This document shows positions 38,832 to 59,326 of a stretch of 64,000 bases of DNA, one piece after another. Origin of the DNA: Aquabacterium sp. A3 (GTDB taxonomy: Bacteria > Pseudomonadota > Gammaproteobacteria > Burkholderiales > Burkholderiaceae_C); assembly GCF_038069945.1 (NCBI RefSeq), contig NZ_JBBPEV010000005.1, positions 186,001 through 250,000 on the forward strand. The letters are read 5' to 3'. The translations under genes and the position numbers were made by a program. Every line of letters starts with the position of its first letter. Position 1 is the stretch's first letter. Under the pieces are notes generated by a model. The model saw nothing but the letters and a program-made list of their open reading frames with translations, made no database searches and was not told the origin of the DNA.

Positions 38832-39536
38832 TCAGATCGACATCAATTCACGCACACCGTCGGCCTCCATGTCGGCACCGCGGCCACGGCGAATCACCTC
38901 GCCACGCTCCATCACCAGGTACTGGTCGGCCAGTTCGGCCGCAAAGTCGTAGAACTGCTCCACCAGCACCACGGCCATCTTCTGGCCATTCAAGCCCTCG
39001 TCGGCCAGCTTGCGAATGGCCCGTCCGATGTCTTTGATGATGCTGGGCTGGATGCCCTCGGTGGGCTCATCCAGGATCAGCACCTTGGGGCCGGCGCACA
39101 GCGCGCGGGCGATGGCCAGCTGCTGCTGCTGCCCGCCGGAGAGGTCGCCACCCCGGCGACCCAGCATCTGCTTGAGCACGGGAAAGAGCTCGAACAACTG
39201 CTCGGGCACCGGCGTGCTGCCGGGCTTGGAGGCCAGGCCCATCTGCAGGTTTTCGGCCACCGTGAGGCGACCGAAGATCTCGCGGCCCTGGGGCACATAA
39301 CCCATGCCCAGACGAACCCGCTCGTAAGGTTTTTGTCCGTTGATGGAGCGGCCATCGAGCTGGATGTCGCCGCTCTTGATGGGCACGAGACCCATCAGGC
39401 TCTTGAGCAGCGTGGTTTTGCCCACGCCGTTGCGCCCCAGGATGACGGTGACCTCGCCCACTTTGGCCTCGAAGCTCAGGCCGCGCAGGATGTGCGAGCC
39501 GCCGTAGTATTGATTCACACTGTTGATTTGCAGCAT
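38832..39536 (-). CDS. urtE: Urea ABC transporter ATP-binding protein UrtE
   Basis: This 234-residue ATPase is one of the two ATP-binding subunits of the urea importer. Walker A is GRNGVGKT near residue 34, the signature is [13 protein letters not shown] near residue 132, and Walker B is [13 protein letters not shown] near residue 153. The start [17 protein letters not shown] is typical of UrtE. It is the last gene of urtABCDE and is separated from urtD by 124 bp that hold a palindromic repeat. Confidence 0.94.
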
Positions 39537-39586
39537 CTCTGCCCTCTCACGTCATCACGTCTTGCCCAACCCAGCGGCCACCGTGG

Positions 39587-39656
39587 AACCGGCTTCGCCG
39601 GGCCACCAGTGGCGCCCCCTTGAGGGGGAGCGCTGAAAGCGCTCGGGGGTGGGCCC
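39587..39656. repeat. Intergenic palindromic repeat between urtD and urtE
   Basis: Three nested inverted repeats stand in a row: CCGGCTTCGCCGG, GCGCCCCCTTGAGGGGGAGC and GCGCTGAAAGCGC, ending in TCGGGGGTGGGCC. The make-up resembles dispersed extragenic palindromes common between genes in Comamonadaceae-type genomes; I recall that resemblance and cannot test it here. Only one copy is seen in this window. It could reduce or protect the mRNA for urtE. Confidence 0.55.
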
Positions 39657-39660
39657 ATCC

Positions 39661-40557
39661 TTAACGTCCCAGATAAACCTCAACGACCTTGTCGTTGGCC
39701 TGCACCTCGGCCAGCGTGCCTTCGGCCAGCACCGAGCCCTCATGCAGCACGGTCACCTTCTTCTTGCCGGCCGTGGGGCCTTGCGTGGTCAGCTCGTGGA
39801 TGAACTTCATGTCGTGCTCAACGACGACCAGCGAGTGCTTGCCCTCCAGCGAGAGGAACAACTCGGCCGTGCGCTCGGTTTCTTCATCTGTCATGCCCGC
39901 CACGGGTTCGTCCAGCAGCAAGAGCTTGGGGTCTTGCATGAGCAACATGCCGATCTCCAGCCACTGCTTTTGCCCGTGCGAGAGCAAGCCGGCCGTGCGC
40001 TGGGCCTGGTCTTTCAGGTGGATGAGCTGCAGCATGGCGGCGATGCGGTCGAGCTGTTCGCCACTGAGTTTGAAAAACACCGAGGCACGCGCCCGACGGT
40101 CGGCCTTGAGCGCCAGCTCCAGGTTCTCGAACACGCTCAGGTGCTCGAACACGGTGGGCTTTTGAAACTTGCGGCCGATGCCGATCTGCGCGATCTCGTT
40201 TTCGCGCATTTTCAGCAGGTCGATGGTTGACCCAAAAAACGCCGTGCCGGTGTCCGGCCTCGTTTTGCCGGTGATCACATCCATCATCGTGGTCTTGCCC
40301 GCACCATTGGGGCCGATGATGCAACGCATCTCACCCACCGAGATGTCCAGGCTGAGCTTGTTCAAGGCCTTGAAGCCGTCAAAGCTGACCTCGATGTCCT
40401 CCAGGTACAGGATCGAGCCGTGGGCCACATCCAGCTGGCCGGGCTCCACCACACGGCTGTAGCTGGCCTCGCGCCCGCCAGATTCTCCGGCATTGGTGGG
40501 AGCTTGATAGGCGCGCGACAGGGTCTTGGCGCCTTCTTCCATCAGATCGGGCGTCAT
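39661..40557 (-). CDS. urtD: Urea ABC transporter ATP-binding protein UrtD
   Basis: The ATPase has 298 residues. Walker A is GPNGAGKT near residue 87, the signature is LLSHGQKQWLEIG and Walker B is LLLLDEPVAGMTDEE. The SHGQ signature in place of SGGQ is usual for this subunit. An N-terminal extension of about 50 residues precedes the ATPase fold. The ATG at 40557 overlaps the urtC stop by four bases (ATGA). It pairs with UrtE to drive urea uptake. Confidence 0.94.
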   Translation of the reverse strand: MTPDLMEEGAKTLSRAYQAPTNAGESGGREASYSRVVEPGQLDVAHGSILYLEDIEVSFDGFKALNKLSLDISVGEMRCIIGPNGAGKTTMMDVITGKTRPDTGTAFFGSTIDLLKMRENEIAQIGIGRKFQKPTVFEHLSVFENLELALKADRRARASVFFKLSGEQLDRIAAMLQLIHLKDQAQRTAGLLSHGQKQWLEIGMLLMQDPKLLLLDEPVAGMTDEETERTAELFLSLEGKHSLVVVEHDMKFIHELTTQGPTAGKKKVTVLHEGSVLAEGTLAEVQANDKVVEVYLGR

Positions 40558-41684
40558 GCCTTCACCTCCGCCTTCTTGTTGAACAGTTTCTTCACGCCGC
40601 CGACGATGCCATCGGGCAGGAACAGCGTCACCAGCACGAACAGCAGGCCCAGGAAGTACAGCCAGTACTCCGGAAAGGCCACCGTGAACCAGCTCTTGGC
40701 CCCGTTGACAAAGAAGGCGCCGATGATGGGGCCGATCAGCGTGGCGCGACCGCCCACCGCCGTCCAGATGGCCATCTCGATCGAGGCCGCGGGCGACATC
40801 TCGCTGGGGTTGATGATGCCCACCTGGGGCACATACAGGGCCCCGGCGATGGCGCACATCACGGCCGACAGCGTCCAGATCGCCAGCTTGTAGGCCAGGG
40901 GGTTGTAGCCGCAGAACATGACGCGGTTTTCGGCATCACGGATGGCCTGCAGCACCCGACCGAACTTGGTGTTCACCAGCCAGCGGGCCATCAGGTAGAA
41001 GCCGATCAGCGTGAGCCCCGTGATGATGAACAGCACCATGCGGGTGGACGGCTGGGCGATGGTGATGCCCAGGATGCGCTTGAAGTCGGTGAAGCCGTTG
41101 TTGCCGCCAAAGCCGGTTTCATTGCGGAAGAACAGCAACATGGCCGCGAAGGTGAGCGCCTGGGTGATGATGGAGAAGTACACCCCCTTGATGCGCGAGC
41201 GGAAGGCAAAGAAGCCGAAGATGAAGGCCAACAGGCCCGGCACCAGCACCACCAGGATCATCTGCCCGATGAAGGAGTCGCTGAACGTCCAGTGCCAGGG
41301 CACTTCTTTCCAGTCCAGAAACACCATGAAATCGGGCAACTCGGAGCCGTAGCTGCCATCGGTGCCGATCTGGCGCATCAGGTACATGCCCATGCCATAA
41401 CCGCCCAGGGCGAAGAACAGCCCATGCCCCAGCGACAGGATGCCGGTGTAGCCCCAGATCAGGTCCATGGCCAGCGCGCAGATGGCGTAGCACATGATCT
41501 TGCCGATCAGCGCCAGCATGTAGTCGGACAGGTGGAAGGCCGAGCCCTCGGGCACCAACAGGTTGAGCACGGGGGCCAGCACCACCACGCTGATGATGGC
41601 CGCCATGAGGGCGGTCCAGCCGGTCGGGCCCAGCAGAAGCCCGCTTTGGGGCTTGAGCAAGACAGAAGAGGTGATTGAACTCAT
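40554..41684 (-). CDS. urtC: Urea ABC transporter permease UrtC
   Basis: This 376-residue permease of the branched-chain-amino-acid type has about ten hydrophobic segments. The WGYTGILSLGHGLFFALGGY motif is near residue 85 and the cytoplasmic loop has GRVLQAIRDAENRVMFCGYN. The ATG at 41684 has GAGG nine bases upstream; an upstream TTG at 41699 is rejected. It forms the membrane channel with UrtB. Confidence 0.94.
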   Translation of the reverse strand: MSSITSSVLLKPQSGLLLGPTGWTALMAAIISVVVLAPVLNLLVPEGSAFHLSDYMLALIGKIMCYAICALAMDLIWGYTGILSLGHGLFFALGGYGMGMYLMRQIGTDGSYGSELPDFMVFLDWKEVPWHWTFSDSFIGQMILVVLVPGLLAFIFGFFAFRSRIKGVYFSIITQALTFAAMLLFFRNETGFGGNNGFTDFKRILGITIAQPSTRMVLFIITGLTLIGFYLMARWLVNTKFGRVLQAIRDAENRVMFCGYNPLAYKLAIWTLSAVMCAIAGALYVPQVGIINPSEMSPAASIEMAIWTAVGGRATLIGPIIGAFFVNGAKSWFTVAFPEYWLYFLGLLFVLVTLFLPDGIVGGVKKLFNKKAEVKA

Positions 41685-41712
41685 GGTGTGATTCCTCAAG
41701 CGTATCGGGGGG

Positions 41713-43362
41713 TCATGCCTCGCGGCCCTTGAAGGCGAACAGCCCTTGGGGTCGCTTCTGGATGAAGATCACCACCATGATCAGCACCATGATCTTGGCC
41801 AGCACGGCGCCCGACCATCCTTCCAGGAACTTGTTGATCATCCCCAGGCCCAGCGCGGCGTAGACCGTGCCGGCCAACTGCCCCACCCCGCCGGTGACCA
41901 CCACCATGAACGAGTCGACGATGTAGGCTTGGCCGAGGTCTGGCCCCACATTACCCACCTGCGACAAGGCGCACCCTGCCAGCCCGGCGATGCCGGCGCC
42001 CAGCGAAAACGCCAGGGTGTCGATGCGCGCCGTGTTGACGCCCATGCACGAGGCCATGGCGCGGTTTTGCGTCACGCCGCGCACGAACAGGCCCAATCGG
42101 GTGCGGGCGATGAGCAGGGACACGCCCACCAGCACCAGCACCGCAAACGCGATGATGGCCAGGCGGTTATAGGGCAAGGTGAGGTTGCTGAGCACGTCCA
42201 TGCCGCCAGACAACCAGCTGGGGTTCTCGACCTGCACGTTCTGTGCGCCGAAGATGGTGCGCACCAGCTGCATCAGGATGAGGCTGATGCCCCACGAGGC
42301 AAGCAGCGTTTCCAGCGGCCGACCGTAGAGGAAGCGAAACACACTGCGCTCCAGGATGGCCCCCACGATGGCCGCGGCCATGAAGGAGGCCGGCACGGCC
42401 AGCCAGATGTAGTAATCAAACGCGCCAGGCAGGTACTGCCGAAACAGGTTTTGCACCACGAAGGTGGCGTAAGCGCCGATCATGATCAGCTCGCCATGGG
42501 CCATGTTGATCACGCCCATGAGGCCGTAGGTGATGGCCAGACCGAGGGCGGCCAGCAACAAGATCGACCCCAGGCTGATGCCGGTGAAGATCACGCCGGC
42601 GTGTTCACCCCAGGCCAGGGTGCGGTTGACCTGTTTGAGCGAGTCTTCCAGCGCGGCCATCACGGCCGGGTCGGTTTCTTCCTCGGGCTGCATGCGCTCC
42701 ATCAACAGGGCACGCACCTCGGGGCTGCCCTTGCCGGCCAGCAGACTGGCGGCCTCGATGCGCCGAGCGGGGTCTTTGGCACGCAACAGGATCTTGGCCT
42801 GCACGGTTTCCAGCTGCTTGCGCAAGGCAGGCACGGTTTCCTGGGCCAGGGCCTGCTCCACCGCAGGCAGTTTGGATTCATCCGGTGCCTCGGCCACCGC
42901 ATCGATGGCGGACTCGCGCTCGTCGGCATCGTCGCTGAGCAATTTGGGCAGGGCCAGCACGGCCTCCAGCTCGCCACTCATGCGGCTGTTGTTGACCACA
43001 TCTTCTGCCGCCTCGGGCAGCGGCATCACCTCACCCGTGATGGCATGGCGGGCGGTTTCGCCGTCGTAGATCAGCACGGTCTCACCCGCAACCTTCACCT
43101 GATCGGCCAACAGGGCTTCGATCAGCGCGGGCAAGGCCGGGTCATTGCGTGGCGTGAGCGCCTGCAGCGCGGCGATGCGCTCGTCGTTGTCGCCTGCCGA
43201 GATGGACAGGGCCTCGGGCATGGTGAGCGCATGCGCCCCGGACGTCAGCATCAACACCACCAGGCCGCACACGCTGGCGGCCTGCCTCAAAGAACCCCAC
43301 ACACGGTGTGGCGCATGGCTGACATCAATTGATTTCACAGGCATGTCCTGTCTTTCACTCAT
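41713..43362 (-). CDS. urtB: Urea ABC transporter permease UrtB
   Basis: The protein has about 549 residues. A signal-like N-terminus and a periplasmic helical region with HEAT-like repeats (about residues 50-240) come before the permease domain of about eight membrane segments, with GVINMAHGELIMIGAY near residue 290. That N-terminal extension is characteristic of UrtB and absent from LivH. Two ATGs (43362 and 43344) are possible. The gene starts directly after an intrinsic terminator following urtA, so it depends on read-through. Confidence 0.92.
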   Translation of the reverse strand: MSERQDMPVKSIDVSHAPHRVWGSLRQAASVCGLVVLMLTSGAHALTMPEALSISAGDNDERIAALQALTPRNDPALPALIEALLADQVKVAGETVLIYDGETARHAITGEVMPLPEAAEDVVNNSRMSGELEAVLALPKLLSDDADERESAIDAVAEAPDESKLPAVEQALAQETVPALRKQLETVQAKILLRAKDPARRIEAASLLAGKGSPEVRALLMERMQPEEETDPAVMAALEDSLKQVNRTLAWGEHAGVIFTGISLGSILLLAALGLAITYGLMGVINMAHGELIMIGAYATFVVQNLFRQYLPGAFDYYIWLAVPASFMAAAIVGAILERSVFRFLYGRPLETLLASWGISLILMQLVRTIFGAQNVQVENPSWLSGGMDVLSNLTLPYNRLAIIAFAVLVLVGVSLLIARTRLGLFVRGVTQNRAMASCMGVNTARIDTLAFSLGAGIAGLAGCALSQVGNVGPDLGQAYIVDSFMVVVTGGVGQLAGTVYAALGLGMINKFLEGWSGAVLAKIMVLIMVVIFIQKRPQGLFAFKGREA

Positions 43363-43371
43363 CTTGCAGCT

Positions 43372-43409
43372 CAAAAAAATAGCCCCCTGGGGTCACCCCC
43401 AGCGGGGCT
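43372..43409 (-). terminator. Intrinsic terminator/attenuator between urtA and urtB
   Basis: On the minus strand AGCCCC-C-CTGGGG pairs with CCCCAG-GGGGCT around a four-base loop, and ATTTTTTGA follows at once. The urtB start codon lies about ten bases beyond. Partial termination here would make more urtA mRNA than urtBCDE mRNA. Confidence 0.8.
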
Positions 43410-43443
43410 GAACGCTCTGCAACAAAAATTCATCCGGCTGGGG

Positions 43444-43471
43444 CCGCTGCCCCACGACATGGGGGCAGCGG
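43444..43471 (-). other. Stable hairpin downstream of urtA
   Basis: CCGCTGCCCC and GGGGCAGCGG form a 10-bp stem around eight bases, 32 bases after the urtA stop. No U-tract follows directly, so it more likely protects the 3' end of the urtA message than terminates it. Confidence 0.6.
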
Positions 43472-43503
43472 TGGTGGCCCGGATGAGGCCACCGCTGAAA
43501 GAC

Positions 43504-44781
43504 TCACTTGACTTCAGGCTCGTCTTTCTTCTTGTCGTTGCCAGGGATGTAGGGGCTCCAGGGCTGGGCCTTGATCGGGCCCGGGGTCTTCCACACCACC
43601 TTGAACTGACCGTCGGCCTTGATCTCGCCGATGAAGACGGGCTTGTGCAGGTGGTGGTTCTTCTCGTCCATCTTGGACATGAAACCGCCCGGGGCCTTGA
43701 AGGTCTGACCCGCCATGGCCTTGATCACGGCGTCCACATCGGTGGTCTTGGCCTTGGTGACGGCCTGCGCCCACATGTTGATGCCGATGTAGGTGGCTTC
43801 CATCGGGTCGTTGGTCAGCGGCTTGTCCTTGTGGCCAGGGATGTTCTTGGCCTTGGCGTAGTCGCTCCACTTCTTGATGAAGGCGTCGTTGGTCGGGTTC
43901 TTGATCGACATGAAGTAGTTCCATGCGGCCAGGTGGCCCACCAGCGGCTTGGTGTCCACACCGCGCAGTTCTTCTTCACCCACCGAGAAGGCCACCACGG
44001 GCACGTCCTTGGCCTTCAGGCCCTGGTTGCCCAGTTCCTTGTAGAAGGGCACGTTGGAGTCGCCGTTGATGGTCGAGATCACGGCCGTCTTTTTGCCTTC
44101 AGACGCGAACTTCTTGATCTTGGCGATGATGGTTTGATAGTCAGAGTGGCCGAAGGGGGTGTACTCCTCCATGATGTCGGCCTCGGCCACGCCCTTGCTC
44201 TTCAGGAAGGCGCGCAGGATTTTGTTGGTGGTGCGGGGGTAGACGTAGTCGGTGCCCAGCAGCACGAAGCGCTTGGCCGAACCACCGTCCTTGCTCATCA
44301 GGTATTCCACAGCGGGAATGGCTTGCTGGTTGGGGGCGGCACCGGTGTAGAACACGTTCTTCTCGAGCTCTTCACCTTCGTACTGCACGGGGTAGAACAG
44401 CAGGCCGTTGTTCTCCTTGAACACGGGCAGCACCGACTTGCGGGACACCGAGGTCCAGCAACCGAAGACCACATCGACCTTGTCCTGGGTCAGCAGTTGC
44501 TTGGCCTTTTCGGCAAACAGGGGCCAGTTGGAGGCCGGATCCACCACCACGGGCTCGAGCTTCTTGCCCAGCAGGCCGCCCTTGGCGTTGATCTCGTCGA
44601 TGGCCATCAGGACGGTGTCCTTGAGCACGGTTTCCGAGATGGCCATGGTGCCGGACAGCGAGTGCAGCACGCCGACCTTGATGGTGTCGGCGGCGATAGC
44701 CATGGAGCTGAAGGCCAGACCGGCGACGCCCAGGGCGACGGCGGACAGGGATTGAACGGCACTGCGACGGGTGAGTTTCAT
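43504..44781 (-). CDS. urtA: Urea ABC transporter substrate-binding protein UrtA
   Basis: This 425-residue periplasmic receptor for urea starts with a signal peptide (about 31 residues, ending MAIAA) that contains a twin Arg (TRRSAVQ), so Tat export is possible. The mature part starts IKVGVLHSLSGTMAISE, as in all UrtA proteins, and the conserved VFGCWTSVSRKSVLP and GTDYVYPRTTN blocks are present. The ATG has AGGAG ten bases upstream. It is the first gene of urtABCDE. The divergent spacer holds an inverted repeat. Confidence 0.95.
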   Translation of the reverse strand: MKLTRRSAVQSLSAVALGVAGLAFSSMAIAADTIKVGVLHSLSGTMAISETVLKDTVLMAIDEINAKGGLLGKKLEPVVVDPASNWPLFAEKAKQLLTQDKVDVVFGCWTSVSRKSVLPVFKENNGLLFYPVQYEGEELEKNVFYTGAAPNQQAIPAVEYLMSKDGGSAKRFVLLGTDYVYPRTTNKILRAFLKSKGVAEADIMEEYTPFGHSDYQTIIAKIKKFASEGKKTAVISTINGDSNVPFYKELGNQGLKAKDVPVVAFSVGEEELRGVDTKPLVGHLAAWNYFMSIKNPTNDAFIKKWSDYAKAKNIPGHKDKPLTNDPMEATYIGINMWAQAVTKAKTTDVDAVIKAMAGQTFKAPGGFMSKMDEKNHHLHKPVFIGEIKADGQFKVVWKTPGPIKAQPWSPYIPGNDKKKDEPEVK

Positions 44782-44854
44782 GGGTGAGCGCTCCTGGTAA
44801 GCGTGGGTTGTTGAATCAGTGAACCCAGTGTGCCCAGGGGCCCCAAAACGAGGA

Positions 44855-44872
44855 ATACGCCACATGGCGTAT
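44855..44872. promoter_or_regulatory. Inverted repeat between urtA and the spermidine-synthase-like gene
   Basis: ATACGCC and GGCGTAT flank ACAT, giving 7-bp arms. The site is 74 bases upstream of the urtA start and 49 bases before the divergent gene. The size suits a dimeric regulator such as a LysR- or Crp-type nitrogen regulator, but no specific factor can be named. Confidence 0.5.
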
Positions 44873-48054: not shown

Positions 48055-49203
48055 ATGAAATCGCCGCAGACGATTACCCCCCCGTTCCCGCCCGGCCTGA
48101 GATGGCGCGTCGTGATGCCGCGGCTGGCGCTGCTCAACGAAATCCTCGTCTGGGTCGGCGCCATTTCCATGCACGTCACCGACGTGCTGGCTGGCGGGGG
48201 ACGGACCAGCCTGGGTCTGCCCTACCAGTTGCTGTGGATCCACCTCATCGGCCTGTGCGGCCTGACCATCAACGGCTCGGTCATACTGGGGCTGGCGCGG
48301 CGCGGTTGGCGCATGACGCCAGACATGGCCGAACGCTACGCCCAGCGAGGCGTCTACCTTGGATTGCCTGCGCGCGTCCGCTGGCAGCTCTTGCTGGGCG
48401 GGATCTTCAGCATTGGTGCGGCGTCCCTGGCGGCCCAGACGCTCATGGCGGTCTGTCTGGCCTTGCCCTTGGCAGAGGGCTTGCCTGATGTGCTACCGCC
48501 CTTTCAGTTCGCCCTGTTCAACTCGCTGTACGGGTGCCTGGCGGTGTACGCGTTCGAAGCCTTCCAGGACCGCGTGGCGCTGAGCCGCTGGCGCGTGCAA
48601 CGTGCCGAAGAACTCACGGCGCAGGCGCAGCTGGACCTGCTGCGCTCGCAGCTCGATCCGCACATGCTGTTCAACACGCTGGCCAATGTGGTTGATTTGA
48701 TGGAAGAAAACCCGAAACAAGCTCGGGACATGGTCAACCGCCTCATTGGGTTCCTGCGGGCCACGCTGGCGGGCAGTCGAGCCAGCGAGCAGGCGCTCAG
48801 CCAAGAGTTCGCGCTGGTCGCAGATTACCTGTCCATCATGCAGATTCGCATGGCCGACCGCCTGCGCGTGCGCCTGGATCTGCCCGAGACCCTGGCGTCG
48901 GTGAAGGTGCCCGCGCTGGTACTTCAGCCCCTTGTGGAGAACGCCATCGAGCACGGCCTGGCGCCCCACCGGCAGGGTGGGCAACTGGACATCACCGCCC
49001 GGCACCAAGGCGGCTGCCTGGTCCTGGAGGTGAGCAACACCGCCGAAGTGCCCCCTGCCTCCGACCCCCATGGGGGATTCGGTCTGGCGTGTGTGCAACA
49101 GCGCTTGCATGCGCTGCACGGTGACCGCGGCCTGCTGGAGTTGTCGCATGATGCCGCTCAACAACTGACGCGTGCCACGGTGCGCGTTCCCTTGTCCACC
49201 TGA
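48055..49203 (+). CDS. LytS-family membrane sensor histidine kinase
   Basis: The protein of 382 residues has about four N-terminal membrane segments (residues 20-175) and a short His-kinase domain of the LytS/YehU type. The phospho-acceptor His is in LDPHMLFNTL near residue 202, and the N-box LVENAIEHGL and a glycine-rich GGFGLACVQQRL follow. It has no PAS or GAF domain, so the membrane part must sense the signal. The LytTR regulator gene follows after 27 bp and is the obvious partner. Confidence 0.92.
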   Translation: MKSPQTITPPFPPGLRWRVVMPRLALLNEILVWVGAISMHVTDVLAGGGRTSLGLPYQLLWIHLIGLCGLTINGSVILGLARRGWRMTPDMAERYAQRGVYLGLPARVRWQLLLGGIFSIGAASLAAQTLMAVCLALPLAEGLPDVLPPFQFALFNSLYGCLAVYAFEAFQDRVALSRWRVQRAEELTAQAQLDLLRSQLDPHMLFNTLANVVDLMEENPKQARDMVNRLIGFLRATLAGSRASEQALSQEFALVADYLSIMQIRMADRLRVRLDLPETLASVKVPALVLQPLVENAIEHGLAPHRQGGQLDITARHQGGCLVLEVSNTAEVPPASDPHGGFGLACVQQRLHALHGDRGLLELSHDAAQQLTRATVRVPLST

Positions 49204-49230
49204 GCTACCCCCGCTCCCCCGCCACCTCCG

Positions 49231-50043
49231 ATGAAATCCGCGCCGCCGGCCCAAACGCTGCCCATGAATTCGACCGTCCGTGCCGTGCTCGCTGAAGATG
49301 AGCCGGTGCTGGCCCGCGGACTGGCTCGGTCACTGCGTGGTCTGTGGCCCCAGCTTCACCTCGACAGCATCGTGCACGACGGGCGTGCGGCAGTAGAAGC
49401 AGCACTCACCCACCTGCCCGACCTGCTGCTGCTTGACATCCGGATGCCGGAGCTCTCCGGGCTGGAAGCTGCGCGTCACGTCGTGGACGACTGGCCCGAA
49501 GGGCGTGCACTGCCGCTGCTGGTGTTCATCACCGCGTTCGACCGCTTCGCGATCGAGGCGTTCGAAGCAGGCGCCATCGACTACGTGCTCAAACCGGTGG
49601 AGCCCGCACGCCTGAGAACAACGGTGTCCCGACTGCAGGCCCGGATGACCGAACGGGAGGGCCACACCTCACGCGCCATTCAAAGCTGTCACCAGCTCGA
49701 GCGCCATGCCGGACACGCGCCGCTGCGCCACATCCAGGCGGCGCACGGCAACAGTCTCCACTTGGTGCCCATTGAGGCGGTGCGCTGCCTCATCGCGGAT
49801 GACAAATACGTGCAAGTGCACACCTCTGAGCGCGTCTGGTTGATCCGAACCCCCATGCGTGAACTTGCCAGCCGGCTGTCGCCTGACCTGTTCGTACAAA
49901 TCCATCGTGGCTGCATCGTGCGCTGGAATGCCATCGACCGCATCGAGCGCGATGACAGCGGCCGCTTGTGCGTGCACCTTGCTGGTCTGGCCCAAGCGCT
50001 GTGGGTCAGCCGCAGCCATGCCCATCACTTCCGGGCCATGTGA
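49231..50043 (+). CDS. LytTR-family response regulator
   Basis: The regulator has up to 270 residues. The receiver domain (about residues 15-135) has the acidic EDE start and a phosphorylation site in LLLDIRMPE. The C-terminal LytTR DNA-binding domain (about 170-268) has the IEAVRCLIADDKYVQVHT and FVQIHRGCIVRWNAI blocks. An internal ATG at 49264 is an equally good start. Expected targets are its own operon and the neighbouring esterase, both next to the direct repeats at 47964-47992. Confidence 0.92.
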   Translation: MKSAPPAQTLPMNSTVRAVLAEDEPVLARGLARSLRGLWPQLHLDSIVHDGRAAVEAALTHLPDLLLLDIRMPELSGLEAARHVVDDWPEGRALPLLVFITAFDRFAIEAFEAGAIDYVLKPVEPARLRTTVSRLQARMTEREGHTSRAIQSCHQLERHAGHAPLRHIQAAHGNSLHLVPIEAVRCLIADDKYVQVHTSERVWLIRTPMRELASRLSPDLFVQIHRGCIVRWNAIDRIERDDSGRLCVHLAGLAQALWVSRSHAHHFRAM

Positions 50044-51028: not shown

Positions 51029-54000
51029 TCAGGCGGCGTTGGCCTCGGAAGACTCCGGGCCCGATTGTGCCTGCTCCAGGCAAGACCTCACCGAATGGGC
51101 CAGGGCATCGAGCTGAAACTGCTTGGCCCACTGCCGGTGGCGCTGCACAAAGGCATCGCACTGCGGCTCGGCGGCGGCGATCTGGTCCAGCACCTTGTGC
51201 ACGCCGCGCACATAACCGGCATGGATCTGGTCTTCCAGGCTGCGCAAGGCCTCCACCGAAGGCATGGCCTCGGGGGCGCTGGACTCGGCCGGCACGATGG
51301 CCTGTGGCGCCGCGGCACGGGCTGCCTCCACCCATTGCAGCTGCAAACGACGACCCAGCCAGTCCAGCAACTCGGCCACCCGCACGGGCTTGACGATGAA
51401 GTCGTCGGGGGTGATGCCCACGTCGTTGTCCAGCGCCTTGTCAAAGGCGTTGGCCGAGACGATGGCCACGGCCGCCTCGGTCAGGCCCTCGTCACGAGCC
51501 TGACGCAGGGTGTCCCAGCCGTCCAGCCCGGGCATGGCCAGGTCCATGAAGATGGCATCGGGGTGCTGCGTGGGCGGCAGCAGCCGCAACTGGGCCAGAC
51601 ACTCCAGCCCCGAAGGCAAGGGCGTCACCTCGAAGCCCAGGGGCTCCAGGATGCGCACCAGCAGGCCGCGATCGGCCTCTTCGTTGTCCACGGCCCAGAT
51701 GCGGCGCCGCTCACCCACGTAGCCGATGCGTTGACCACGCGGCACGACGTGAGGCACCTCGGCATGGCGCACCTGCGGCAAAAACAGCCGAATGCGGAAG
51801 CTCGTGCCCTGACCTGGCACGCTGTGCACGGTCATCTCGCCGCCCATCAGGTCGGTCAGCATCTTGCTGATGGTCAGGCCCAGGCCGGTGCCCCCCACCG
51901 AGGAGCCCGCCGCCGAAGAGCCCCGCGCGAAGGGCTCGAACACCTTGTCCAGCTCCTCGGTGGCGATGCCGGGCCCGGTGTCGGTGATCTCGATGTGGGC
52001 GATCTCGCGGGCGTAACGCAGGCTCAAACGCACCTGCCCGGCTTGCGTGAACTTCACGGCGTTGCCCAACACATTGATCAAAATCTGCCGCACGCGGCGC
52101 TCATCGGCCCGCACGGCCTCAGGCAAGGCCGGGTCGATGTCGGCGATGAACTGCAGGTGCTTGGCCCGGGCCTCGTGCTCGATCAGGCCGGTGATCTGCT
52201 TGAGCAGCTCACCCAGCAACACGGGTTTGACGTCCAGCGTCAGCTTGCCGCTTTCAATGCGGGCGATGTCCAGCGTGCCTTCGATCAGCGACAGCAGGTG
52301 GTCGCCCCCGCGCTTGATCACGCCCACGGCGTGCTTGACGTGCTCGGGCAGCGTCAGATCGTCATCCAGCAGTTGCGCATAGCCCAGGATGCCATTGAGC
52401 GGCGTGCGCAACTCATGGCTGATGGTCGAGATGTAGCGGCTTTTGGCGTGGTTGGCCTGTTCGGCCACGTGCTTGGCCTGTTGCAGCTTTTCATCGGTGA
52501 TGCGGTGCAGGTCGATTTCGCGCACCAGCAAATGGGTCTGGCGGTTGGATTCTTCTTGCGCCACCTGGCGGCTTTTGTGCGTCAGCACCACCCACCAGCT
52601 CACCACCCCCACGATCAGCAAGAGCGCAGCAAACAGCTTGAGCAAGGTGTCCTTGAGCATGCTGGCGGCCCCGGCGTAGGCCTGAGCATCCAGCTGCCCC
52701 AGGTCTTTGAGCTGCTGCTGGTAGACCAGGCCGAACAAGGCGGCCAGCAAGGGCGCCAGCACCAGCATGATCAACAGAAAGTGCCCCAACTCGGTGTCCA
52801 CCCGTTGCCACACCGGGCCCGGCATCAAGCGTGTGGCCAGGGCACGCCACTGCACGGCCCAGCGCGCATGGGGTTTGCACAAATCCTGACAGCGTGCGTC
52901 CAGCGCGCAGCACAGCGAGCAGATGAAGCCCTGGTAAGCCGGACACTGGGCCACGTCATCGGCCTCGTACTCGCGCTCGCACACCGTGCAGCGGTGCAAG
53001 GCCTTGAGGCGAATCACCCGGGCCAGCGGGGCGCCTTCGGTGTCGGGCGCGGTTTCGTCTGTTGCGGCCACCAGCGGCTGCCGAGCGAGGTAATAGCGAC
53101 CCCGCGTGGCCCACGCGATCAACGGCGAGGTCACGAACGCCACCACCATGGCGATCACCGCCGAAAACGCCTGGGCCACCTCACCCATCCAGCCCACATG
53201 CGCCATCATGGACACCAGCGAGGCCAGGCTCATGGCGCCCACGCCCACCGGATTGATGTCGTACAAGTGCGCGCGCTTGAACTCGATGCCACGGGGCGAC
53301 CAGCCCATGGGTTTGTTGACCACCAGGTCGGCCACCACGGCCATCATCCACGCGATGGCGATGTTGGCGTACAGCCCCAGCACCTTGCCCAGCGCCTGGA
53401 ACACATTGAGCTCCATCAGCAGCAGGGCAATCAGCGCGTTGAACACCACCCACACCACGCGACCGGGGTGGCTGTGCGTGACACGGGCAAAGAAGTTGGA
53501 CCACGCCAGCGAGCCCGCGTAGGCGTTGGTGACGTTGATCTTCATCTGCGAGATCACGACAAACACCACCACGGCCGCGATGGCCCAGGTCTGGTGCCCC
53601 ACGATCAGCTTCCACACCACCAGGTACATCTGATTCGGGTCGAGGGCGTCATCCACCGAGCGCCCCACCTGCAGGGCCAGAAAGGCCAGCAAGGCGCCAC
53701 CCAGCATCTTGAGCACGCCCATGATCACCCATCCAGGCCCACCCACGAAGACATTGAGGTGCCAGCGCCAATCTGATCGGTCGCGCGCTGGCCGCACGGG
53801 CTCGGGCATGAAGCGCAGGTAATCGGCCTGCTCGCCCATCTGCGTGATCAGGGCGATGCCCACCGTCAAGGCCGCGCCAAACGCCAGCAGGTCAAAACCC
53901 TGGTGGGTGCCGGTCTTGCCGGCGTACTGCATCAACTCGGGCAGCAAATTGGGCTGGGTCTGAAACACATACACAAACGGAATGACCAGCATCACCAGCC

Positions 54001-54601
54001 AGATGGGCTGGGTGAGCACCTGCAGCCAGCTGATGGTGGTGATGCCGTGGGTGACCAAGGGGATGACCACCACGGCACACACCAGGTAACCCCAGGCTGG
54101 CGGGATGCCAAAGGCCAGCTCCAGCGCATAGGCCATGACGGCGGCCTCCAGCGCAAAGAAGATGAAGGTGAAGGACGCGTAGATCAGCGAGGTGATGGTG
54201 GAGCCGATGTAGCCGAAGCCCGCGCCGCGGGTGAGCAAATCCATGTCAACGCCGTAACGGGCCGCATAGATGCTGATGGGCCACCCCGCCAGCAAGATCA
54301 GCAGGCCCGTGGCCACGATGGCCCAGAAGGCGTTGATGAACCCGTATTCGATGAGCAAGGTGGCACCCAGCGCCTCCAGCACCAGGAACGAGGCCACGCC
54401 AAAGGCCGTGTTGGCCACCCAGGAGCCGCCCCACTTGCGCGCTGAACGTGGGGTGAAGCGCAGGGCGTAATCCTCGATGGTCTCATCGGCCACCCAGCTG
54501 TTGTAATCACGTCGCACCTTGACGACCCGCTGCGGAGCCTCCGGGGCGTGGGCGTGGGCGCTGCTGAAGGCGTCTGGACGAAACTGGTCTGTCTCTTGCA
54601 T
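51029..54601 (-). CDS. NCS1-type permease fused to a hybrid histidine kinase
   Basis: This 1190-residue protein joins a full cytosine/purine/allantoin permease-like domain (about residues 35-500, with some 12 membrane segments) to a signalling part. A Cys-rich block resembling a zinc ribbon lies at residues 538-575 (CTVC, CSLCC and more). Two further membrane segments follow near 605 and 650. The kinase has the phospho-acceptor His729 in ISHELRTP and an ATPase domain ending with GTGLGLTISKML. A receiver domain has phospho-Asp1020 in FMDLAMPG, and a helical C-terminal region ends the protein. The design recalls CbrA, where a solute symporter is fused to a kinase. It is divergent from ureA with only 68 bp between them, so a nitrogen compound is the likely cue. 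Confidence 0.9.
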   Translation of the reverse strand: MQETDQFRPDAFSSAHAHAPEAPQRVVKVRRDYNSWVADETIEDYALRFTPRSARKWGGSWVANTAFGVASFLVLEALGATLLIEYGFINAFWAIVATGLLILLAGWPISIYAARYGVDMDLLTRGAGFGYIGSTITSLIYASFTFIFFALEAAVMAYALELAFGIPPAWGYLVCAVVVIPLVTHGITTISWLQVLTQPIWLVMLVIPFVYVFQTQPNLLPELMQYAGKTGTHQGFDLLAFGAALTVGIALITQMGEQADYLRFMPEPVRPARDRSDWRWHLNVFVGGPGWVIMGVLKMLGGALLAFLALQVGRSVDDALDPNQMYLVVWKLIVGHQTWAIAAVVVFVVISQMKINVTNAYAGSLAWSNFFARVTHSHPGRVVWVVFNALIALLLMELNVFQALGKVLGLYANIAIAWMMAVVADLVVNKPMGWSPRGIEFKRAHLYDINPVGVGAMSLASLVSMMAHVGWMGEVAQAFSAVIAMVVAFVTSPLIAWATRGRYYLARQPLVAATDETAPDTEGAPLARVIRLKALHRCTVCEREYEADDVAQCPAYQGFICSLCCALDARCQDLCKPHARWAVQWRALATRLMPGPVWQRVDTELGHFLLIMLVLAPLLAALFGLVYQQQLKDLGQLDAQAYAGAASMLKDTLLKLFAALLLIVGVVSWWVVLTHKSRQVAQEESNRQTHLLVREIDLHRITDEKLQQAKHVAEQANHAKSRYISTISHELRTPLNGILGYAQLLDDDLTLPEHVKHAVGVIKRGGDHLLSLIEGTLDIARIESGKLTLDVKPVLLGELLKQITGLIEHEARAKHLQFIADIDPALPEAVRADERRVRQILINVLGNAVKFTQAGQVRLSLRYAREIAHIEITDTGPGIATEELDKVFEPFARGSSAAGSSVGGTGLGLTISKMLTDLMGGEMTVHSVPGQGTSFRIRLFLPQVRHAEVPHVVPRGQRIGYVGERRRIWAVDNEEADRGLLVRILEPLGFEVTPLPSGLECLAQLRLLPPTQHPDAIFMDLAMPGLDGWDTLRQARDEGLTEAAVAIVSANAFDKALDNDVGITPDDFIVKPVRVAELLDWLGRRLQLQWVEAARAAAPQAIVPAESSAPEAMPSVEALRSLEDQIHAGYVRGVHKVLDQIAAAEPQCDAFVQRHRQWAKQFQLDALAHSVRSCLEQAQSGPESSEANAA

Positions 54602-54669
54602 AGTGGCATTCTGATCCGGCCCCAAGACCGCAAATTCAATGCCCGGGGCCACCGACCTGCCAGGCACCC

Positions 54670-54972
54670 ATGGAACTCACCCCACGCGAGAAAGACAAGC
54701 TGCTCATCTTCACCGCCGCCTTGCTGGCCGAGCGGCGAAAGGCACGCGGCCTGAAGTTGAACTACCCCGAAGCCGTGGCCTTGATCACCGCCGCCATCAT
54801 GGAAGGCGCGCGTGATGGCAAGACCGTGGCCGACCTGATGAGCGATGGCAAGACCGTGCTCAGCCGGGCCGACGTGATGGAGGGAGTGGCCGACATGATC
54901 CCCGAGATCCAGGTGGAGGCCACCTTCCCGGATGGCACCAAATTGGTGACCGTGCACCAACCCATTGCATAA
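54670..54972 (+). CDS. ureA: Urease gamma subunit
   Basis: This 100-residue subunit matches UreA over its full length, from [23 protein letters not shown] to the C-terminal VTVHQPI. It is part of the cytoplasmic nickel enzyme that splits urea to ammonia and carbamate. It heads the urease operon. The 68-bp spacer to the divergent kinase gene contains GGCCCC and GGGGCC arms (54618-54650) but no clear promoter. Confidence 0.97.
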
Positions 54973-55064: not shown

Positions 55065-55253
55065 ATGACGCACCGCATTCTTGCCGCCCGACTGTCCGCC
55101 CTGGCCTTGCTGGGCAGCCTCAGCGCACCGGCCCTGGCGCATGAAGGCCACGGCCTGCCCGGCCTGGCCCACTGGCACGCCACCGACGTGCTGGGCTTTG
55201 TCGCGCTGGCCGCCATCGTGGTCGGCGTGATCTGGTTCAAGGGGCGCAAGTGA
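55065..55253 (+). CDS. Small His-rich membrane protein in the urease operon (HupE/UreJ-like fragment)
   Basis: This 62-residue protein has a signal peptide (cleavage after ALA at about residue 26), a His-rich stretch ([13 protein letters not shown]) and one membrane segment ending in KGRK. The start of the mature part resembles the HPGHG nickel-binding motif at the N-terminus of HupE/UreJ nickel permeases, but the other membrane segments are missing. The ATG at 55065 is used because the upstream codons lack a signal peptide. The stop overlaps the ureB start (TGATG at the junction), so it is translated with urease. A role in nickel handling is inference. Confidence 0.8.
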
Positions 55254-55558
55254 TGGTGCCCGGCGAGCTGATCACCGATGGGCCCGACATCGACCTGAAC
55301 CCGGGACGCCGCACCCTCACCCTGGTGGTGGAAAACGCAGGCGACCGGCCCATCCAGGTGGGCTCGCACTACCACTTTGCCGAAACCAACGCCGGTCTGC
55401 GCTTCGACCGTGAGGCGGCGAAGGGCATGCGGCTGAACATCGCCTCGGGCACGGCCGTGCGCTTCGAGCCGGGCCAGCAACGCACCGTGGAGCTGGTGGA
55501 CTACGCCGGAGACCGCACGGTCTATGGCTTCCGTGGCCTGGTTCAAGGCCAGCTCTGA
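55253..55558 (+). CDS. ureB: Urease beta subunit
   Basis: This 101-residue UreB protein has the family blocks [18 protein letters not shown] and the C-terminal YGFRGLVQG region. The ATG at 55253 overlaps the stop codon of the small upstream gene; a GTG directly before it is also open. It packs with UreA and UreC in the enzyme core. Confidence 0.96.
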
Positions 55559-55588: not shown

Positions 55589-57316
55589 ATGGCAAGCATC
55601 CCCCGACGCGCCTATGCCGAAATGTTCGGCCCCACCACTGGCGACCGCGTCCGCCTGGCCGACACCAACCTCATCATTGAAGTTGAAAACGACCTGACCC
55701 TGCGCGCTGGCGGCTATGGGGAAGAGGTCAAGTTCGGTGGTGGCAAGACCATCCGCGATGGCATGGGCCAGGGGCAGCGCCCCAACGGGCCTGGCGCGGG
55801 TGACGCCTGCGACTGCGTGATCACCAACGCGCTGATCCTGGACCACTGGGGCATCGTCAAGGCCGACATCGGCATCAAGGCCGGCCGCATCGTCAAGATC
55901 GGCAAGGCCGGCAACCCCGATGTGCAGCCGGGCGTGGACATCGTCATCGGCCCAGGCACAGAGATCGTGGCCGGCGAAGGCATGATCGTCACGGCCGGCG
56001 GCATCGACACCCACATCCACTTCATCTGCCCGCAGCAGATCGAAGAGGCGCTGATGAGCGGGGTGACCACCATGATCGGTGGCGGCACCGGGCCGGCCAC
56101 GGGCACCTTTGCCACCACCTGCACGCCAGGGCCCGACAACCTGGCCCTGATGCTCAAGGCGGCCGAAGCCTTCCCGATGAACATCGGCTTCCTGGCCAAG
56201 GGCAACGCCAGCCAGCCCGAGGCCTTGCGCCAGCAGGTGCACGCCGGCGCCATCGGCATGAAGTTGCACGAAGACTGGGGCACCACACCGGCGGCCATCG
56301 ACTGCTGCCTGAGCGTGGCCGAAGAAACCGACGTGCAGGTGGCCATCCACACCGACACGCTCAATGAATCGGGCTTTGTCGAAGACACCGTGGCGGCGTT
56401 CAAGGGCCGCACCATCCACAGCTTTCACACCGAAGGCGCCGGCGGCGGACACGCCCCCGACATCATGAAGGTGGTGGGCGAGCTCAATGTGCTGCCCTCG
56501 TCCACCAACCCCACCCGCCCCTACACGGTCAACACCATCGACGAGCACCTGGACATGCTGATGGTGTGTCACCACCTGGACGCGTCCATCGCCGAAGACC
56601 TGGCCTTTGCGGAAAGCCGCATCCGGCGCGAGACCATCGCCGCCGAAGACATCCTGCACGACCTGGGCGCCATGAGCATGTTCAGCTCGGACTCGCAGGC
56701 CATGGGCCGCGTGGGCGAGGTCATCATGCGCACTTGGCAGACGGCCCACAAGATGAAGGCGCAGCGCGGTGCCCTGCCCGGTGACACGGCACGGCATGAC
56801 AACGCCCGCGTGAAGCGTTATGTGGCCAAGTACACGATGAACCCGGCGCTGGCCCATGGCATCGCCCACGAGGTGGGCAGCGTGGAAGAAGGCAAATGGG
56901 CCGATCTGGTGATCTGGAAGCCCGCCTTCTTTGGCGTCAAACCCAGCATCATCATGAAAGGCGGCTTCATTGCAGCGGCGGCCATGGGCGACCCCAACGC
57001 CTCCATCCCCACGCCGCAGCCCGTGCATTACCGGCCCATGTTTGGCAGCTTTGGGGGCGCTTTGTCACGTACCTCGCTGGCGTTCTTGAGCCAGTCGGCC
57101 ATCGCTGCGGGCGTCCCGGGCGAGCTGGGGCTGAACAAGCAGATCGTGGGCGTCAAGGGCTGCCGCACCGTCAAGAAGACGGACATGGTTCACAACAGTT
57201 ACCTGCCCAAGATGGAAATCGACGCGCAAACCTACCAGGTGCGCGCCGACGGGCAGTTGCTGGTGTGCGAACCCGCCACCGAATTGCCGATGGCGCAGAA
57301 GTACTTCTTGTTCTGA
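55589..57316 (+). CDS. ureC: Urease alpha (catalytic) subunit
   Basis: The subunit has 575 residues, a little longer than the 567 of Klebsiella UreC. Nickel ligands are visible in [12 protein letters not shown] and in [15 protein letters not shown], and the carbamylated Lys is Lys225 in [10 protein letters not shown]. The active-site flap His is in MVCHHLD. All motifs appear intact, so the enzyme should be active if UreD is supplied from elsewhere. It follows ureB by 30 bp. Confidence 0.97.
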
Positions 57317-57331
57317 GCCACACTGGCGTCC

Positions 57332-57931
57332 ATGCTGACCGTCAACAAACTCCTCCCTCAAGGCCAGGGCCTGGCCCCTGTGCTGCTCAAGCGCGCCGCC
57401 ACCGTCGAACTGGATTGGGACGTGCGCCAGAAAAGCCGCTTTGACGCCACCGACAGCCAGGGCCGCACCCTGGGCGTGTTCTTGCCTCGTGGCACGGCCG
57501 TGCGAGGCGGTGATGTGCTGGTGGCTGAAGACGGCTCCATGATCCGCGTGGTGTCGGCGCCCCAGGCGGTGTTGGTGATCACGCCTTGTGCGGCACACGG
57601 GTCGCCTTTCGACTTGGTGCGCGCGGCCTACCACCTGGGCAACCGCCACGTGCAGATCGAACTGCAGCCGGACCACCTGAAAATCGAGCCCGACTACGTG
57701 CTGGCCGACATGCTGCGCGCCATGCACCTGACGGTGCGTGAGGCCCACGAGGCCTTCGAACCTGAAGGGGGCGCTTACGCTGCGGGTGGGCATGGGCATG
57801 GGCATGACCATGCACACGGCCACGATCACGACCATGCGCCAACGCCCCGTGGCAAGCCCGTCGGGATTCCCGTCAAAGGAGCGCCCGCCACACCTCATGT
57901 GCACGGCCCGGGCTGCGGCCATGATCACTGA
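57332..57931 (+). CDS. ureE: Urease accessory nickel chaperone UreE
   Basis: The protein of 199 residues has an N-terminal peptide-binding domain and a metal-binding domain with the central [11 protein letters not shown] motif. A long C-terminal His tail holds [15 protein letters not shown] and a second [11 protein letters not shown] cluster. It delivers nickel to the UreDFG-urease complex. It lies 15 bp after ureC and overlaps ureF. Confidence 0.95.
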
Positions 57932-58682
57932 GCGCAGCGCCCCGATCACCGCCGCCGCCCGCTTGCAACTGATGTGGTTGGCCTCGCCGGCCCTGCCGGT
58001 GGGTGGCTTCAGCTACTCAGAAGGCCTGGAGGCGGCCATCGATGCCGGCCTGGTGGGCACAGAGGCCCAGGCCCAGGCCTGGCTGGTGGACCAACTGCAC
58101 CTGGCCGTGGCCCGCAGTGACCTGGCCGTGGTGGCCCGTGCCGTGGCCGCGTGGCAGCGGCACGACCTGATGCGCGTGCGGGAACTCAACGACTGGGTGA
58201 TCCACACCCGTGAAACCAGCGAGCTTCGGCTGCAGACCGAACAAATGGGGCGCTCGCTGGTGGAGTGGTTGCGCAACCGGGGTGGCGGGGCTCAGGTGGC
58301 CACAGACGATGCCCGCCTGAGCGAATGCGCCGCGCTGGCGCCTGCCCCCACCTGGCCAGTGGCCTTTGCACTGGCGGTGGCGCAGTGTTTGCCGCCGGGG
58401 TCCGTGCGCTCTTGTGCGGCATCGACCGCCCCCATCGTGCGCGAGGCCTTGCTGAGCTTCACCTTTGGCTGGGCTGAAAACATGGTCCAGGCGGCCATCA
58501 AGGCCGTGCCCCTGGGACAAAGCGCTGGCCAGCGCATCTTGCAGGCCCTGGTGGACGACATTCCCCAGGCCATCGACACCGCCCTGTCGCTGTCGGATGG
58601 TCAGCGACAGGCTTTCACCCCCATGCTGGCCATCCTCAGTGCGCAGCATGAATCTCAATACTCTCGACTGTTCCGATCATGA
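57921..58682 (+). CDS. ureF: Urease accessory protein UreF
   Basis: This 253-residue helical protein works with UreD and UreG to activate urease. The block [19 protein letters not shown] near residue 20 is characteristic. The ATG at 57921 overlaps the ureE stop by 11 bases and the stop overlaps ureG by four (ATGA). An open frame upstream from 57738 lies entirely inside ureE and is not used. The usual partner ureD is not found in the window. Confidence 0.94.
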
Positions 58683-59326
58683 GCGCTTTGCACAACATCC
58701 CTGGCCGCACCAAGAAGCTCCCCCCCCTGCGCGTGGGCGTGGGCGGGCCCGTGGGCTCGGGCAAGACCACCCTGCTCGAAATGCTGTGCAAGACCATGCG
58801 CGAGCACCACGACCTGGTGGTCATCACCAACGACATCTACACCAAAGAAGACCAACGCCTGCTGACCGTGGCCGGCGCGCTCGACCCGGATCGCATCATG
58901 GGCGTTGAAACGGGCGGCTGTCCACACACGGCCATCCGTGAAGACGCCTCGATCAACCTGGAGGCGGTGGACCGCATGCTGGCCAAGTACCCGGATGCCG
59001 ACATCGTGTTCATTGAATCAGGCGGCGACAACCTGGCGGCCACCTTCAGCCCGGAGCTCAGCGACCTCACCATCTACGTGATCGACGTGGCCGCTGGCGA
59101 AAAAATCCCGCGCAAAGGGGGCCCCGGCATCACCAAGAGCGACCTGTTCGTGATCAACAAGACCGACCTGGCCCCGCACGTGGGCGCCAACCTGGAGATC
59201 ATGGAAGCCGACACGAAGCGCATGCGACCCACGCGCCCCTTTGTGATGACCAACCTCAAAACCAAGACTGGCCTGGATCAGGTCATCGAATTCATCGAAA
59301 CCAAGGGCATGCTCAAGGCCGCTTGA
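58679..59326 (+). CDS. ureG: Urease accessory GTPase UreG
   Basis: This 215-residue SIMIBI-class GTPase delivers nickel during urease maturation. The P-loop [13 protein letters not shown] is near residue 23, the metal-binding motif [15 protein letters not shown] near residue 78, and [10 protein letters not shown] supplies guanine specificity. Its last 14 bases overlap the convergent sulfatase-fold gene. It is the last gene of the urease operon. Confidence 0.97.

Follow-up and report, generated by a model that had tools for sequence, protein, structure and literature searches.

What does a permease joined to a hybrid histidine kinase sense, and which genes does it control, when its gene diverges from a urease operon? 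The question is raised by a 64,000-nucleotide stretch of the Aquabacterium sp. A3 genome (contig NZ_JBBPEV010000005.1, positions 186,001 to 250,000; here the window), in which one gene encodes such a fusion, the sensor. Sequence comparison indicates that the protein is likely a urea/short-amide transceptor that activates urea and amide uptake and hydrolysis through a LuxR-type regulator and an 18-bp palindromic box. The system, a probable urea/amide transceptor with a regulator and a candidate operator, is real and widespread, with thousands of homologues in alpha-, beta- and gammaproteobacteria and in hundreds of plasmid records. Urea is of major importance both as a fertiliser and as a source of nitrogen in hosts, and for this reason its sensing bears on soil nitrogen loss. 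The regulator gene, the urtABCDE operon (38832-44799) and the palindromic box (44855-44872) are additions to a first-pass annotation of this locus, which our results partly support; the ligand class, the direct target and the meaning of a Cys block came out differently.

The sensor gene is a single open frame on the reverse strand, with its ATG at 54601 and its stop at 51029-51031, and encodes 1190 amino acids. Hydropathy shows about 12 segments before residue 498 or reaching it (overlapping ones were joined by eye) and 2 more at 608-674; between them lie eight Cys (538, 541, 553, 561, 564, 565, 571 and 575). His729 and Asp1020 occupy the usual motif positions of the HisKA and receiver domains, and together with the HATPase domain and a partner regulator they complete the features of a hybrid histidine kinase. 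The first-pass annotation had described a permease, a Cys-rich ribbon at 538-575, a kinase and a receiver in one frame, 68 bp from a divergent ureA, and all of these were recovered.

The transporter part is poorly recognised by family models: Pfam gave no transporter match for the sensor at thresholds as loose as E 10 (apart from MscL, at E 1.7), and NCBIfam gave none for its permease part. Profile comparison with hhalign aligned residues 40-498 to a 13-sequence NCS1 set led by E. coli CodB with 99.85% probability (96% against CodB and two others), blastp to the CodB-like protein L201 gave E 8e-7, and a predicted model (predicted template modelling score 0.79) had CodB and Mhp1 as its best solved-structure matches. 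The domain therefore combines NCS1 profile homology with a LeuT-type fold nearest Mhp1 and CodB, bearing out the NCS1-like permease first proposed. SLC5-type chains (SGLT, CHT1) appear in the structure-match lists below CodB and Mhp1, and Pfam, searched to E 10, assigned the sensor no SLC5 family, which points to NCS1 over SLC5. Residues 500-719 matched no Pfam family, and a STAC domain was not identified, though no STAC-specific model was compared. Sequence searches of the PDB with the family profile (E up to 1) and with the family member L132 found nothing; a stand-alone relative, L153, matched small cytochromes only through its Cys tail, which we took as chance. A PF02133 search of the Aquabacterium genome gave no match, and the same search finds the family in 4 of 14 control genomes.

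The permease region matches 8000 or more proteins with lengths 0.55 to 1.75 times that of its own protein, and many sources annotate such proteins as 'purine-cytosine permease-like' hybrid kinases. In a sample of the order it had a match in 53 of 300 genomes, 49 of them strong (48 fusions and the stand-alone permease of genome G259), and matches of any strength occurred in 21 of 369 genomes sampled across the class and 64 of 398 across the phylum. Neighbouring genes were probed with urease, Urt, FmdA/FmdB, amidase and regulator sequences in 80 named loci, which are the nearest relatives and hence biased to the clade of the window protein, and in loci of the sampled genomes; counts were limited to loci flanked by 5 kb or more on each side (54 named, 59 sampled; 113 in all). 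Urease, UrtA-C, FmdA or amidase genes shared the locus of the fusion in 48 of the 54 named cases and 52 of the 59 sampled ones, and a matching regulator lay no more than 600 bp away in all 54 named cases and in 52 of the 59 sampled ones (106 of 113 in all). None of twelve 20-kb control stretches, placed at round numbers in the same genomes, contained urease, UrtA-C or amidase; one gave a generic ABC-ATPase match, and matches to UrtD or UrtE only were left uncounted for that reason. UreC was present in 47 of the 49 strong-match genomes versus 76 of 251 others (kinship uncorrected), so that co-occurrence with urease genes, a check set beforehand, was found across species. By our count a divergent ureA adjoins the fusion in fifteen named genera, which argues that the observation is not due to chance. 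These results support the earlier view of a transporter-derived sensor kinase tied to nitrogen genes, with a transporter part nearer to NCS1 than to the SLC5 domain of CbrA.

A tree of 87 representatives, built by a quick method with SH-aLRT support only, resolves two paralogue clades, one mostly beside urease and the other mostly beside urt and formamidase genes, and Aquabacterium has one copy of each. The clade with the window protein has 33 rows (support 91), of which 20 adjoin urease, four urt and four none of these, three are at contig ends and the rest adjoin amidase; the second copy, 60% identical to the first and located beside urtABCDE, formamidase and fmdB, falls in a clade of 41 rows (support 88), 36 of them beside urt. 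Neither clade is starred in the tree, and outside both are the stand-alone permeases and four variants (L121, L122, L155, L156). The tree requires at least nine changes among the labels urease, urt and amidase (rows that lack such neighbours or are cut off by a contig end were left out), which argues that the urea/amide link is not one inherited accident. Sensor and regulator also lie beside urt-type genes with formamidase in Burkholderia vietnamiensis G4 (pBVIE02) and Methylobacterium currus, and annotated records place both beside urt-type genes in Roseomonas haemaphysalidis, the sensor with urtABCDE and formamidase on Klebsiella pneumoniae p1-KP21317, and the sensor beside urease in Mitsuaria sp. 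7.

Plasmids carry the permease as well, with a match in 536 of 72,556 records, 342 of them from Klebsiella. The one Klebsiella plasmid viewed (L283; NZ_CP124699.1, K. pneumoniae) is conjugative, of type IncFIB/IncFII, and carries urtABCDE, formamidase, the sensor and a single box, and on pBVIE02 (L282), also conjugative, a sensor-regulator-urt-formamidase-amidase set is flanked by transposase genes.

These neighbours bear on the ligand. The sensor might instead answer to a nucleobase or ureide (allantoin, uracil or hydantoin), as NCS1 proteins usually do, with urease following because purine breakdown ends in urea, but this is unlikely. CodB and Mhp1, its relatives by fold and profile, do carry cytosine and hydantoins, and characterised NCS1 members share heterocyclic substrates according to the accessible part of PMC13390362. 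Against this, the recurrent neighbours among the genes probed are urease, urea/amide ATP-binding cassette transport, formamidase and amidase (purine and pyrimidine genes were not systematically probed), and MetT, a metformin carrier described in the accessible literature, shows that an NCS1 protein can take a substrate without a ring. The comparison of substrate residues proposed in the first-pass annotation may also speak against a heterocycle: mapped by hand from the hhalign alignment at 18% identity, Trp108 of CodB corresponds to Phe148, and the stacking Phe204 in transmembrane helix (TM) 6 corresponds to Leu251. Allantoin, uracil, purines or a related nitrogen source had been suggested, and the urease, UrtABCDE, FmdA and aliphatic amidase neighbours point to urea and short amides in place of the first three.

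Equally improbable is a sensor that reads nitrogen status or the ammonia released by urease and amidase, a product and not the substrate. In favour of this idea, ammonia is the common product of urease, formamidase and amidase. A transporter has also served as the basis of an ammonium sensor kinase in the case of Ks-Amt5. The sensing part of the present protein has an NCS1 fold and two stand-alone members of its family lie in urea or amide clusters, which together suggest that the signal is a carried substrate.

Comparison of urtA/sensor gaps, with no prior knowledge used, yielded a palindrome of 18 bp with the consensus ATACGYCANNTGRCGTAT; a match is defined as at most 1 of twelve fixed positions wrong, and shuffled controls moved 2-base blocks. 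The box is found in 26 of 39 urtA/sensor gaps (11 of 1950 shuffles), 22 of 64 ureA/sensor gaps (1 of 3200 shuffles; Comamonadaceae 19 of 34, Sphaerotilaceae 1 of 21) and 61 of 81 UrtA upstream regions (4 of 1620 shuffles), and of 108 matches across 2.94 Mb of locus sequence 100 fell within 450 bp upstream of urtA, the sensor, ureA or fmdA, with 14 matches in shuffled DNA; these counts overlap the discovery set and include close relatives. Outside the discovery set, 20 genomes with and 40 without the fusion were fetched from a longer list, and the box was present at the urtA orthologue in 7 of 20 and 0 of 40, respectively, and in 1 of 600 shuffles (p 2e-4). In a post hoc split by clade, assigned from the tree or, for nine genomes outside it, from identity and context, all 7 were among the ten genomes with a urease-clade copy, and six of the ten with only the other clade had an exact box beside the fusion. 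Six plasmid loci outside the discovery set had a box at 0-1 mismatch before urtA in four cases (L282, L283, L286, L287, the last with another 1-mismatch match elsewhere) and a 2-mismatch palindrome in one (L285); the sixth (L284) had no box, and has urease and no urt within the stretch. The 64 kb of the window contain a single match when 3 mismatches are tolerated, a looseness at which shuffling predicts 0.47, and this match is therefore weak taken alone; a perfect TACGCC-N4-GGCGTA box precedes urtA in 13 of 13 near-relative loci (L032-L047) with the urtA start inside the stretch. The system thus combines conserved linkage to urea/amide genes with a shared operator-like box, as expected of a urea/amide-responsive regulator. 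Two genomes (L216, L217) contain another box some 10-11 kb away from the first one, where no urea context was recognised by eye.

The gaps also contain GG-N10-GC elements resembling sigma-54 promoters, one of which was seen by eye, directed toward the sensor, in an alignment of near-relatives of the 68-bp gap. Scanned for the consensus at a score of at least 9, over a stretch that is partly coding, ureA/sensor gaps had an element toward the sensor in 51 of 65 (6.7% when shuffled) and toward ureA in 60 of 65 (9.9% when shuffled), and urtA/sensor gaps had one toward the sensor in 23 of 39 and toward urtA in 3 of 39. The frequency in ureA/sensor gaps makes sigma-54 control there possible. Such elements, which fit NtrC-type control, lend something to the idea that the box belongs to another regulator of urt and that the two-component system next to it controls something else, as does the fact that operator and regulator are linked by genome comparison only. 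We regard that idea as a little less probable again than the two alternatives above: no urtA orthologue in the 40 fusion-free genomes has the box, six of the ten genomes with only the other clade have the exact box next to the fusion, and CrbR, the LuxR-type regulator of a similar sensor, is described as using an inverted repeat that is imperfect.

The stand-alone relatives clarify the ribbon. Each of its Cys is kept in 155 to 157 of 158 aligned rows, confirming the conserved block, which had been taken as a possible additional metal or redox input inserted between permease and kinase. Stand-alone permeases carry it wholly (L152, all eight Cys) or partly (L153 and L119, only the CxxC pairs 538/541 and 561/564), so by alignment the ribbon is part of the permease module, and the sensors' own addition is the two extra TM helices. 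The permease clade is characterised by the motifs QxGEQxDxLRF in TM6 and SQxKIN in TM8, and the sensors of both clades share their TM3, TM6 and TM8 motifs with the three stand-alone permeases, which suggests a single ligand class and a pocket still under selection. No clade-specific pocket residues separating urea from amide were seen in the TM3, TM6 and TM8 stretches viewed; five weak clade-specific positions lie outside them, two (residues 80 and 84) near TM1. That the permease is a relic merely anchoring the kinase is very improbable given these retained motifs, even though PF02133 recognises above cut-off only one of 41 family members, the stand-alone L153.

L152, L153 and L119 are candidate urea/amide carriers, and make a new carrier family directly testable. 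More tentatively, and with confidence just short of balanced, we propose that NCS1-type urea/amide permeases bearing an 8-Cys ribbon at the C-terminus form an entire clade, mostly missed by Pfam, in which stand-alone members would serve as carriers in urease and formamidase clusters, and the same module, joined to several outputs (hybrid kinase, receiver-less kinase, PAS-GGDEF-EAL), would form transceptors that read flux or occupancy and move on plasmids with urt/amidase cargo and operator.

Several divergent relatives were also seen. In L155 (6849-10520) permease and ribbon are joined to PAS-GGDEF-EAL in place of the kinase, with a possible cyclic di-GMP output. Permease-kinase fusions in L166 (8499-11156) and L169 (7663-10347) lie near FmdA with different response-regulator genes alongside; L166 has no receiver by Pfam, and L169 is similar in length (the Pfam scan was made on L166 only). 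L121 (9016-14431) encodes a divergent family member of 1.4 thousand amino acids followed by a bifunctional nicotinamide mononucleotide adenylyltransferase/Nudix gene, in a genome without a UreC match, and in L154 (7949-9442) a distant NCS1 permease (27% identical, PF02133 match) adjoins a nitrilase-like gene (by eye).

For the transceptor favoured here, the following course can be proposed. Urea or a short amide such as formamide would bind the central pocket of the NCS1-fold permease, whose conformational cycle would reach the HisKA-HATPase kinase by way of the 8-Cys ribbon and the additional TM pair. The kinase would phosphorylate the receiver-LuxR regulator encoded next to it, with the built-in receiver perhaps tuning or buffering the flow. 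The regulator would then bind the palindrome before urtABCDE in the window, or before urtA/sensor, ureA/sensor or fmdA elsewhere, and presumably activate substrate uptake and hydrolysis. The likely direct target in the window is urtABCDE, to which urease expression is probably matched without a box before ureA. The first-pass annotation had the sensor control urease; direct control of ureA is not supported in the window, where the box lies before urtA, 10 kb away. In some relatives, mostly Comamonadaceae, the box does lie in the ureA/sensor gap.

A number of observations weigh against this account. Ligand, transport, phosphorylation and DNA binding are all predictions. Two genomes (G061, G068) carry the fusion without UreC, 13 of 113 loci have none of the probed urea/amide genes, including Zoogloea-type loci that keep the regulator, and the near-relatives L121, L122, L155 and L156 adjoin none of them. 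The 68-bp gap of the window, tried as an operator site, contains no box, and the box is likewise missing from 42 of 64 ureA/sensor gaps, 20 of 81 UrtA upstream regions (at 0-1 mismatch) and, in the orthologue test, the tested urtA of 13 of 20 fusion genomes. The shuffles kept 2-base blocks only, and many of the loci are closely related. With as many as 2 mismatches allowed, the Aquabacterium genome has 6 sites versus 5 for a reversed control pattern and G253 has 3 versus 20. The exact 16-mer occurs in 18 of 300 genomes and its reversed control, by our count, in 35. The exact 16-mer is present in 12 of 49 strong-match genomes versus 6 of 251 others; the box is unusual by its placement, not by its genome-wide count.

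Table 1. Features of the sensor locus in the window, and stand-alone relatives of the permease (locus coordinates).
Feature	Position	Strand	Basis or remark
urtE	38832..39536	-	TIGR03410 335.5 bits, cut-off 285.8
urtD, start approximate	39661..40413	-	TIGR03411 373.4 bits, cut-off 304.1
urtC	40554..41699	-	TIGR03408 455.6 bits, cut-off 296.2
urtB	41713..43374	-	TIGR03409 429.5 bits, cut-off 250.3
urtA, start approximate	43504..44799	-	NCBIfam TIGR03407 593.9 bits, cut-off 492.75
Candidate operator ATACGCCACATGGCGTAT	44855..44872	.	Perfect 8-bp arms; sole window match to TACGTCANNTGACGTA at up to 3 mismatches
Response regulator, receiver + LuxR (GerE) helix-turn-helix, 319 amino acids	50067..51026	-	Pfam; proposed cognate, 2 bp past sensor gene
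Sensor, 1190 amino acids	51029..54601	-	NCS1-type permease, 8-Cys ribbon, two TM helices, hybrid histidine kinase
Receiver (Response_reg), residues 969-1080 (Asp1020)	51362..51697	-	Pfam
HATPase_c, residues 833-941	51779..52105	-	Pfam
HisKA, residues 719-785 (His729)	52247..52447	-	Pfam
Two further hydrophobic segments, residues 608-674	52580..52780	-	Hydropathy; three stand-alone permeases stop short of them
8-Cys ribbon, residues 538-575	52877..52990	-	Cys positions, conservation, presence in stand-alone permeases; cytoplasmic by hydropathy count
NCS1-type permease domain, residues 40-498, ~12 TM helices	53108..54484	-	hhalign 99.85%; CodB 7qoa and Mhp1 best structure matches
Gap between divergent sensor and ureA, 68 bp	54602..54669	.	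No operator-like palindrome; GG-N10-GC element toward sensor
ureA, urease gamma	54670..54972	+	Library match
ureB-like open reading frame	55250..55558	+	Named by eye from printed sequence
ureC, urease alpha	55589..57316	+	Library match
ureE	57332..57931	+	Pfam
ureF, mechanical open reading frame	57738..58682	+	Pfam; overlaps ureE
ureG	58679..59326	+	Pfam cobW/HypB/UreG domain
Stand-alone permease L152, 559 amino acids	L152:10767-12446		Formamidase gene cluster; precedes fmdA and amidase
Stand-alone permease L153, 540 amino acids	L153:9089-10711		Urease cluster; between ureG and a nickel-transporter-like gene (by eye)
Stand-alone permease L119	L119:6125-7711		Family member

The real start of ureF is probably further in, given its overlap with ureE. 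Just downstream of the sensor operon (48055-50043) is a pair of genes for a LytS-type kinase and a LytTR regulator, and similar pairs occur in L036, L038 and L041.

In the open-access literature we found no transporter-based two-component urea sensor and no paper on an NCS1-kinase fusion, subscription papers being mostly outside reach. The comparison with known systems draws on published articles (PMC5715377, PMC9100948, PMC13022988, PMC5764959, PMC9379551, PMC13390362, PMC13296017, PMC12625717, PMC8905175, PMC12918730). A hybrid kinase and a LuxR regulator are encoded beside urtABCDE in Ectopseudomonas guguanensis G3 (PMC13296017), a likeness of gene types and position; the accessible text gives the pair no function, domain analysis or operator. 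CbrA, previously put forward as the precedent for a transporter-kinase fusion, is indeed one but is not alone, being joined in these sources by CrbS, RpuS and Ks-Amt5. The SLC5/STAC kinases CbrA, CrbS and RpuS (of CbrAB, CrbSR and RpuSR) likewise join a LeuT-fold transporter to a histidine kinase, and CrbS and RpuS are described as hybrid kinases with a LuxR-type regulator, for which an inverted-repeat operator is shown in the case of CrbR. They serve acetate, pyruvate or histidine, whereas the present family is linked to urea and amides and its linker has the 8-Cys ribbon and TM pair; with a transporter part nearer NCS1 and no STAC domain identified, the sensor is not filed with them. CodB and Mhp1 share fold and profile homology with its permease part, and MetT, also of NCS1, is reported to carry a non-ring guanidine-type compound; none of the three is reported as kinase-fused in the sources at hand, and the sensor clade differs in its own TM6 and TM8 motifs and C-terminal Cys ribbon. 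Ks-Amt5 is likewise a nitrogen-source transporter domain turned kinase sensor, but it belongs to the Amt family and, as a section heading states, binds ammonium without translocating it. If the reading presented here is correct, NCS1 would join the short list of transporter folds turned sensor kinases, with a regulator and an 18-bp box that can be tested.

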